Of a DNA stretch of 64,000 bases, positions 34,063 to 39,516 are shown piece by piece. Each line of letters opens with the position of its first letter. Position 1 is the stretch's first letter. This DNA is from an uncultured Thermoanaerobaculia bacterium (GTDB lineage: Bacteria; Acidobacteriota; Thermoanaerobaculia; Multivoradales; Multivoraceae), in the NCBI GenBank assembly GCA_951813015.1, contig CATOTG010000001.1:496001-560000 (forward strand). The letters are read 5' to 3'. The position numbers and the translations under genes are program-made. The notes under the pieces are model-generated. The model was not told the origin of the DNA and did no database searches. It saw only the letters and a list, made by a program, of their open reading frames with translations.

Positions 34063-36651
34063 ATGGATGAAGCTCCAGATCGAATCCCGGCTACGTCATC
34101 GTACACCCTGGTTGATCGTCGCCGACGCTCCTCACACTGCTCGAGCGTCGGTTCCCGGCAGTCGGCCCACGTGCCGCGTCTGGTGCTCAAGGTCCTCGGC
34201 CTGGCGCTGGCGCTCGGCCTGTACGGCGGCGCGTCTTACGCCCAGACGGTATGCACGACGAGCACCGCAGCCGTCGTACACGCCGTGGGCAGCCGTGATC
34301 TGAGCGACGAAGCGAAGAGATTGCTGGTTGCCGACTGCACCGCCCTGAAGGCCTTCCAGGCCGAGCTGACTCTCAAGAGCGGATCAGGCCTTTTCGATAG
34401 CTTGCAATGGAGGCTCAGTCAGGGCATGCATACGTGGCGAGCGATCAAGCTGCACCCCAGCACGCGCCGCGTCACCCACCTCACGCTCGGCCATTCCTTC
34501 AACGCGACGGGAGAGCTCCCCGACCTGGGCGCCCTTGACGGACTCACCCATCTCCGGATCACCCACAACGAGCTGTCCGGGTCCATCCCGTCGTTGAGCA
34601 AGCTGACCAGCCTGCAGCATCTCCGTCTCAACGACAACGAGCTGTCCGGGTCCATCCCGTCGTTGAGCGGCCTCACCAAGCTGAAAACTCTGGATCTCAG
34701 CAGGAACGAACTGACCGGGAGAATCCCGTCGTTGACCGGCCTCGCCGAGCTGGAAACGCTCGCTCTCAGCAGGAACAAGTTGACCGGGAGCATCCCGGCG
34801 TTGAACGGCATCACCACCCTGAGGTGGGTCGATCTCAACGACAACAACCTGACCGGGGGGATCCCCGCCCTGTCCGCCCTCGTGAAGCTGGAGCGTTTCA
34901 ATGTGGGCAACAACTTCCGATTCACCAGAGGCGTGGCAAACAACCTGACCGGGGAAATCCCCGCCCTGTCCACCCTCGTGGCACTGAAGCATCTCCGCCT
35001 CAACGACAACAAGTTGACAGGGGGAATCCCGACCCTGCCAAGCGGCAACAACCTGCAAGAAATCTCGGCCCATTTCAACAGCTTGACCGGGGGCATCCCC
35101 AGCATCGCCAGCACCGGCATGAGGGTGCTCAACCTCCGCGGCAACGACATGACCGGGAACATCAACAACGCGACCGCCGCCACCGGCATCAGGCGCCTCC
35201 TCCTCGGGTCGAACGGCTTTACCGGCGCCATTCCCGCCACCCTCGACAGCCTGACCAACCTGGAGCATCTGTCCCTGTGCGGGAACAGTCTCACGGGGGG
35301 CCTGCCAAGCGCCACGAGCGGGCGGCTGACCCCCGGCGATGGCGGAACTGCGCCGATGACGATGTACCGTTGTCTCGACGTCGCCGACGCCGAGGTGAAC
35401 GAGGGGGAGGCTGTGAACTTCGTCCGGACCTACTCGAGGTTTCCCCTGACCTCGGGGGTTTCCCAGATCAGCGTGCAGTTGAGGACCCAGAACGGCACGG
35501 CGACAACTGCGGACTACCAGCCCCTAAGCAACTCATTGCTGGCATCGATCGTGTCCGCCGCCGACGGCTCTGCCAAAGCAGAGTGGACGCTCCCGGCAGT
35601 GTCCACGAAGACCGACTGCGTCGTCGAAGGCCCGGAGACCTTCACGATGGATATCGTGAGCTACTCCCTCGACGACATACTCTGGAGCTACGGCGGCACG
35701 GCAACGATCAACAACGTGGCCCCGGCAGCCAGCTGTCCCCCTCCCCCCGACTCCGACTCAGACCCCGAGCCGGAGCCGGAGCCCGAGCCGGAACCCGAGC
35801 CCGAGCCCGATCCCGACCGGTTCGTCGCGCCGTACTGGCGGGGCGCCGGCGGCATCGTCGTCAAGCCGGCCAACGGCCTCTCCGTGACGTTCGAGATGTC
35901 CTGCCGCGGCGCCCGCACGACGGAGACGCTGTATGCCAACGATGACGGCCTGATCGTCCAGCTGGTGCGCCGGGACGCGTGCATGGACGATGACGGGAAT
36001 CCCGTCCGCGGCGAATTGTCAGTCAGGGACATCGAGCCCGGCGGCTGGTACTGGGTCGACGGCCCCCGGAACGCCGCCGTCGCGCCGCTGGTCTCCGAAG
36101 TCGAGCTGGGCGGCGACGCGGCGACGATTCCCGCCGGCGTGGAGACGGACGTGACAGCCAACGGCACGTTCTTCGAACACGAAGCCGGACGGATGATCGG
36201 CATCGTGCCGCACCTGCCGACGCCCGACGCCGACGCTTGCGGCGAATACGTCAGCCCGTACTGGCGGGGCGCCGGCGGCATCGTCGTCAAGCCGACCGAC
36301 GGCGAATCGGCGAAGCTTCGGAGCACCTGCGGCGGCTGGAACTCGACCCAGACGCTGCAGGCGAACGATGACGGCCTGGTCGTCCAGTTGCTGCGCGGGG
36401 GCGGCGACAGCAACGCCAACTCCTGCGAGCTCTCCTTCGAGGGCGTCAGGCCGGGCGGCTGGTACTGGGTCAACGGCCCGCGGAACGCGGCCGTCGCGCC
36501 GCTGGTCTGCAAGGACACGCTGAGCGGCCCCGCGGCGACGGTCCCGGTCGGCGTGGACGCGGACGAAGCGGCCCACGGCACGCTGTTCGAGCACGACGTT
36601 GCAATGCTCATCGGCATCGTGCCCCACCTGCGCCGCCCACCCGAGGAATAG
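34063..36651 (+). CDS. Secreted LRR - Calx-beta-like - (PE)n - tandem C-terminal module protein 1
   Basis: 862 residues. A long n-region is followed by a signal helix (VLGLALALGLYGGASYAQ, cleavage after about residue 63). About 140-420: a run of plant-type LRRs of about 23-24 residues, unit LxxLxLNDNxLTGxIPxL. About 436-556: Calx-beta-like domain (DAEVNEGEAVNFVRTYSR, VVEGPETFTMDI). About 565-585: acidic/Pro-Glu linker. Then two copies of a module of about 125 residues (586-718, 730-861), each starting PYWRGAGGIVVKP, containing NDDGLxVQLxR, PGGWYWVxGPRNAAVAPLV, and ending GIVPHL. Each copy has two Cys. I do not recognise this module. No LPXTG, PEP-CTERM or type IX sorting tail is seen. Likely an extracellular binding protein; ligand unknown. 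The 34067-36651 region is AT-richer than its neighbours only in the LRR part. Confidence 0.85.
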   Translation: MDEAPDRIPATSSYTLVDRRRRSSHCSSVGSRQSAHVPRLVLKVLGLALALGLYGGASYAQTVCTTSTAAVVHAVGSRDLSDEAKRLLVADCTALKAFQAELTLKSGSGLFDSLQWRLSQGMHTWRAIKLHPSTRRVTHLTLGHSFNATGELPDLGALDGLTHLRITHNELSGSIPSLSKLTSLQHLRLNDNELSGSIPSLSGLTKLKTLDLSRNELTGRIPSLTGLAELETLALSRNKLTGSIPALNGITTLRWVDLNDNNLTGGIPALSALVKLERFNVGNNFRFTRGVANNLTGEIPALSTLVALKHLRLNDNKLTGGIPTLPSGNNLQEISAHFNSLTGGIPSIASTGMRVLNLRGNDMTGNINNATAATGIRRLLLGSNGFTGAIPATLDSLTNLEHLSLCGNSLTGGLPSATSGRLTPGDGGTAPMTMYRCLDVADAEVNEGEAVNFVRTYSRFPLTSGVSQISVQLRTQNGTATTADYQPLSNSLLASIVSAADGSAKAEWTLPAVSTKTDCVVEGPETFTMDIVSYSLDDILWSYGGTATINNVAPAASCPPPPDSDSDPEPEPEPEPEPEPEPDPDRFVAPYWRGAGGIVVKPANGLSVTFEMSCRGARTTETLYANDDGLIVQLVRRDACMDDDGNPVRGELSVRDIEPGGWYWVDGPRNAAVAPLVSEVELGGDAATIPAGVETDVTANGTFFEHEAGRMIGIVPHLPTPDADACGEYVSPYWRGAGGIVVKPTDGESAKLRSTCGGWNSTQTLQANDDGLVVQLLRGGGDSNANSCELSFEGVRPGGWYWVNGPRNAAVAPLVCKDTLSGPAATVPVGVDADEAAHGTLFEHDVAMLIGIVPHLRRPPEE

Positions 36652-39516: not shown

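Follow-up and report, generated by a model that had tools for sequence, protein, structure and literature searches.

Two paired genes for secreted LRR proteins end in a tandem module that belongs to a domain family that no catalogue lists; its fold is predicted with confidence, more than 90 copies stand in the loci read, and it is tied to one uncultured genus. The genes lie in a 64,000-nucleotide stretch of DNA from an uncultured Thermoanaerobaculia bacterium, here called the window. We put at roughly one half the probability that the tandem module acts as a C-terminal tail specific to this lineage, positioning secreted proteins by display or targeting.

Two LRR genes with a shared tandem module

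The open reading frames of both genes, P0001 and P0002, are intact, with stops at 36651 and 39516. Their start codons are homologous ATGs at 34063 and 36823, each with AAGGAG six bases upstream. The features of the two genes, in window coordinates, are as follows.

34063..36651, + strand: LRR protein 1 (P0001, 862 aa), with signal peptide, LRR, Calx-like segment, linker and two modules
34063..34245, + strand: long signal peptide of P0001, 61 aa, ending GASYAQ, kept among LRR paralogues
34474..35307, + strand: LRR domain of P0001, borders approximate (Pfam LRR_4/LRR_1/LRR_8; 69-nt repeats by repeat search)
35458..35661, + strand: Calx-beta-like segment of P0001, weak (Pfam PF03160, E 0.25)
35719..35820, + strand: acidic Pro/Glu/Asp-rich linker of P0001, borders approximate, from the sequence
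35824..36216, + strand: module copy a of P0001 (HMM 272 bits; AlphaFold2 pLDDT 93.1)
36250..36630, + strand: module copy b of P0001 (HMM 241 bits; tandem AlphaFold2 model)
36823..39516, + strand: LRR protein 2 (P0002, 897 aa), architecture as P0001
36823..37008, + strand: long signal peptide of P0002, 62 aa, from paralogue comparison
38251..38502, + strand: Calx-beta-like segment of P0002 (Pfam PF03160, E 0.0028, under the cut-off)
38533..38661, + strand: acidic Pro-rich linker of P0002, borders approximate, from the sequence
38665..39057, + strand: module copy a of P0002 (HMM 270 bits)
39091..39495, + strand: module copy b of P0002 (HMM 279 bits)

The signal peptides, of 61 to 62 residues and ending GAS(Y/H)AQ, were judged by eye. 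LRR_4 scored above the Pfam cut-off in both proteins (E 6e-28 in P0001 and 5e-28 in P0002), and Calx-beta scored below it, at 11.8 bits in P0001 and 18.1 bits in P0002 against the 27 required. Thus, in the shared architecture described by the initial annotation, the LRR, the linker and the four module copies hold up and the Calx-beta assignment is weak and sub-threshold. The two proteins are 92% identical in their tails and 49% identical in their heads, and the likeness of the modules is far above chance.

When scored with an HMM built from the four copies, those copies reached 241 to 279 bits. The module measures 127 to 135 residues (about 131), which corrects the first estimate of about 125. 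The two cysteines per copy that had been noted earlier prove to be a constant of the family: C27 and C53 (copy 1 numbering) are present in all 33 non-redundant modules. Across the genus, the Cys pair, GG, W75 and A85 are invariant at a mean column identity of about 35%.

Prepilin-like genes, by eye of the type IV minor-pilin type, lie directly downstream of the LRR genes on the − strand (window 40059-43111), and a secretin gave only one match per genome in four genomes of the genus. A GC-rich hairpin (GGCGGCGGTCCGGCAACGGACCGTCGCC) is found 3′ of LRR-tail genes, for example at about 39520-39620 in the window, and is common to most copies before their flanks diverge; it looks like a terminator or a repeat.

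Predicted structure and fold relatives

The initial annotation had proposed structure prediction for one module, and AlphaFold2 returned a confident, all-beta fold (pLDDT 93.1, pTM 0.85, 45 sequences). The tandem pair was modelled with pLDDT 88.6 and pTM 0.88 from 26 sequences, and the confident mutual placement of its halves suggests that the two modules pack together.

The nearest solved fold found by VIA was 1nc7 (TM1070/ASRT), with a Z score of 8.4 and an rmsd of 3.3 A over 90/138 aligned residues, where the best Z of an orphan model is typically 7 to 8. This match covers only the first 96 residues of the module, whose GG(I/F)VxxP stretch sits near the N terminus. Next in rank came a carbohydrate-binding module from Ruminococcus (Z 6.7, 2.9 A, 83 aligned), and 2ii9 was matched as well (Z 5.4). 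Foldseek searches with the single module against the PDB and a search of BFVD returned nothing at E ≤ 0.001. The predicted module thus bears a marginal resemblance to known families (TM1070/ASRT and the carbohydrate-binding module), at the level of fold only. DUF5719 also surfaced as a possible fold relative. Comparison of the tandem model with the PDB was set aside as not meaningful, the top Foldseek matches being vicilins (TM 0.17, rmsd 18 A) and the best VIA Z score 5.0.

In principle the module may be an ASRT (ASRAH) superfamily member that has diverged, a claim about ancestry that is compatible with either display or targeting. The ASRAH superfamily has predicted sugar binding and occurs as dyads in secreted proteins (PMC2739507), which, with 1nc7 as the best structural match and 2ii9 as a further one, favors such an origin. 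We consider it unlikely, however: a search of 30 modules with the ASRT profile PF07100 gave no match at E ≤ 1, hhalign gave 0.1 to 0.2% for the module against three ASRT sequences, and the SHExxCxxN signature of the ASRT-like family is missing, with no SHE motif in 30 modules.

Interchangeable heads and single-module proteins

The tandem pair is a C-terminal tail whose heads are exchanged. It stands behind LRR plus Calx-like, Spond_N (E 2e-37 to 7e-39), FN3 (E 2e-15), SWM/Big_5 (E 5e-28 and 3e-43), metzincin and PKD-like heads. The proteases are of the matrixin M10 (E 1e-5) and M12 reprolysin (E 2.5e-9) types, and the PKD and Calx-beta matches are weak. The linker ahead of the tail is usually acidic and rich in Pro, Glu and Asp. 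In the tail proteins we saw neither a membrane anchor nor any known sorting motif, LPXTG included. The initial annotation had offered a surface anchor or a binding head as roles for the module; the anchor fits better because one conserved tail stands behind many unrelated heads, binding of a host ligand being possible as well.

Headless tails also occur, as in one gene with Calx and tail and without LRR or signal peptide (L030:1944-3374, G000:C6), and tail fragments are present in a second genome (G019:C1:3319858 and 4155511). These copies are likely remnants of recombination.

Another architecture, type B, has a single module straight after the signal peptide, followed by an unrecognised C-terminal part. 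In six genomes (G000, the genome of the window, and G011, G014, G015, G008 and G005) type B genes share a stretch with an ABC-2 permease (ABC2_membrane), GT2, GNAT and macro-domain-like genes and a further conserved gene. The permease adjoins the type B array in G000 and is about 10 kb or more distant in the others; the exporter and glycosyltransferase genes flank the type B array, not the tail proteins. Type B/C module proteins often end in a conserved ELVPxNPFP-like motif (L032:6680-11551, L129:2349-18882, L131:1946-19500), perhaps a signal for sorting or processing.

We asked how far these architectures fit an export signal for an outer-membrane secretion machine, like type 9 secretion or PEP-CTERM sorting. 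A tail that is strictly C-terminal, sits on unrelated cargo and coevolves within a genome would suit such a signal. That reading nevertheless seems very unlikely, since 270 residues in tandem, with conserved Cys pairs, would make a large signal, type B proteins carry the module at the N terminus, and exosortase (PF09721) was absent from four genomes of the genus in which the positive control was detected. SprA (PF14349) was unmatched in four genomes of the genus, where its control also gave no match.

A module found in a single genus

As the initial annotation had supposed, the module belongs to no known family in any of the libraries searched: Pfam, NCBIfam and PHROGs left it unmatched, and its sole match among PDB sequences had an E value of 0.89. 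A single-sequence search placed it at 24 sites in G000, comprising nine tandem tails at 84 to 100% identity, about 14 single modules at about 30% and one weak match (L024) that contains internal stops.

Within the sets searched, the module is restricted to one genus, Thermoanaerobaculia, Candidatus Multivorans or close to it. It was present in all 21 genomes searched of this genus and in none of 20 others from the family and order. With a 30-row profile, matches among 396 genomes of the phylum fell in 1 of 210 genera, the other 209 being empty. A scan of contigs from 84,980 species, keyed on a short peptide pattern that distant relatives elsewhere could escape, gave 23 loci, whose records without exception bear the titles Thermoanaerobaculia, Holophagales, Acidobacteria or Candidatus Multivorans. 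The pairing of LRR proteins first noticed in the window is therefore real but too narrow a description of a genus-wide family, which includes single-module forms and of which over 90 modules were counted across the loci read. Type B was found in all 21 genomes of the genus and the tandem tail in about 14, from match lists read by eye; with about one-third of the genomes lacking it, the tandem tail is not a core function.

No relative of the tail was found in the phages, plasmids and viral contigs searched, and we dropped the idea that the tail is cargo of a mobile element for that reason.

A second C-terminal tail family, with the pattern LCLxDxRYEV...NWExLIKVLDGC...WVF...TDT.AF, occurs at 52 places in G000 (for example, L132:11801-13945). 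Like the module tail, it is small and often tandem and follows secreted heads (metzincins and others) and an acidic Pro-rich linker. It differs in distribution, being present in at least 8 of 61 sampled genera of the phylum, compared with the single genus of the module. Pfam gave no name to it in the one protein scanned. Homology between the two tails found no support (hhalign 0.2%).

Heads follow orthology and tails evolve in concert

We compared the tail proteins of G000 with those of G019, a one-contig genome. Five orthologous heads are 91 to 98% identical in protein and 95 to 99% in DNA, and the tails of the same five pairs are 79 to 82% identical in protein and 88 to 92% in DNA; tails within one genome average 89% identity. 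In the tail tree, a branch (86/86) separates the eight G000 tails from the rest, and the AU test rejects all five ortholog tail pairings (p 4e-81 to 7.5e-5), whereas the head tree joins the same five G000/G019 pairs at 100/100. Tails thus evolve in concert within a genome while heads follow orthology.

For the pairs W1/g19g and C8c/g19b, head dS was 0.016 to 0.018, compared with 0.06 to 0.47 in three syntenic background genes, so at least these two heads look as if the species had shared them recently, or else are unusually conserved. Apart from C8c/g19b, the paired genes that were compared have unrelated flanks: the unit moves together with its leader and some 100 bp of the DNA that follows it. 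Dispersed copies have the leader and about 100 bp beyond the gene in common before they diverge. In G019, the stretch between the homologues of the two sequences flanking the window locus contains three LRR-tail genes and one tail fragment. Head dN/dS exceeds 1 between paralogues, which we did not take as positive selection, given misalignment among the LRR repeats and a dS lowered by high GC3.

Within G000, tail dS is 0.06 and dN 0.05. With dS as low as dN, there is little purifying signal between tail paralogues. Concerted evolution can stem from gene conversion alone, which counts against a display role, and the tail might accordingly have no common partner, having spread by duplication and been kept alike by gene conversion of near-identical DNA. 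The low dS matching dN and the shared leader and downstream DNA are in line with this. Against it, the Cys pair, GG, W75 and A85 are held invariant across the genus at about 35% identity and different lineages joined the module to unrelated heads; we regard the absence of a common partner as quite unlikely.

A proposed display or targeting role for the tail

We favor a role for the tail as a display or targeting cassette because it is promiscuous, fixed in position, alike within each genome and attached to heads with extracellular relatives. Known relatives of the attached head types act outside the cell. The tail would be a packed pair of beta domains, probably with a disulfide in each, that follows a flexible acidic Pro-rich linker and holds different outward-facing heads on one common partner, located either at the cell surface or within the matrix around it. 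The likeliest partner would be a polysaccharide or glycoconjugate. The type B proteins, often near a polysaccharide-type ABC exporter and a glycosyltransferase, may belong to this surface too, as an older component. We infer a display or targeting function, a surface location, a glycan ligand and one shared partner, with the heads facing a sponge or other host.

The lineage of this genus is reported from marine hosts. We found no paper tying the genus records to a sponge, so a sponge origin is presumed from the lineage and the names of the records. From the head types and the lineage, contact of the tail proteins with eukaryotes is plausible.

A doubtful alternative is that the tail binds a host or substrate target. 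It would then bring the heads not to the cell's own surface but to some glycan or matrix component, belonging to the host or to organic matter of the reef. The layout of head, linker and tail, with metzincin, Spondin_N, FN3 and LRR heads, recalls carbohydrate-binding modules joined by linkers to secreted enzymes, and one such module is among the nearest folds. Eukaryote-like repeats abound in sponge Acidobacteriota, and adhesion genes occur in sponge symbionts (PMC8163846). Yet in all genomes of the genus, type B proteins have the module right behind the signal peptide and lack such heads, and tails homogenised per genome suit a partner on the producing cell at least equally well.

A fuller version of the display reading, which we offer tentatively, is a genus-specific surface display system. 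Type B proteins, encoded close to polysaccharide export genes, would build or coat the surface, and an acquired tandem tail would dock any secreted protein onto it; heads would swap between species, with tails rewritten to the resident surface by concerted evolution.

The tail offers a simple sequence handle for the outward-facing proteins of the genus, among them proteins headed by an LRR, a spondin-like domain or a protease. Between two species, heads and tails have opposite histories, a clean example from nature of surface proteins built of modules, and the placing of contact proteins that have no known anchor becomes testable through one small recombinant domain.

Comparison with known systems

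The ASRT/ASRAH family (PF07100; TM1070, PDB 1nc7), an eight-stranded beta-sandwich in the TM1070 topology, may resemble the module in being a beta-sandwich of similar size; its secreted versions form dyads, and it is predicted to bind sugars (PMC2739507). The module differs in having no sequence or profile similarity to this family, an extra C-terminal part (about residues 97 to 131) outside the match and two invariant cysteines. The carbohydrate-binding module of Ruminococcus flavefaciens Cel5A (5aos, 5fu2) is likewise a beta-sandwich appended to secreted modular proteins, but it has about 100 residues and is 10 to 11% identical to our module, with no sequence relation; the resemblance here is one of fold only. 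Bacterial LRR surface proteins and the eukaryote-like repeat proteins of sponge symbionts (PMC8163846) share with P0001 and P0002 the character of secreted LRR proteins; P0001 and P0002, in which no LPXTG or other known anchor was seen, differ from the bacterial LRR surface proteins in carrying the new tandem tail.
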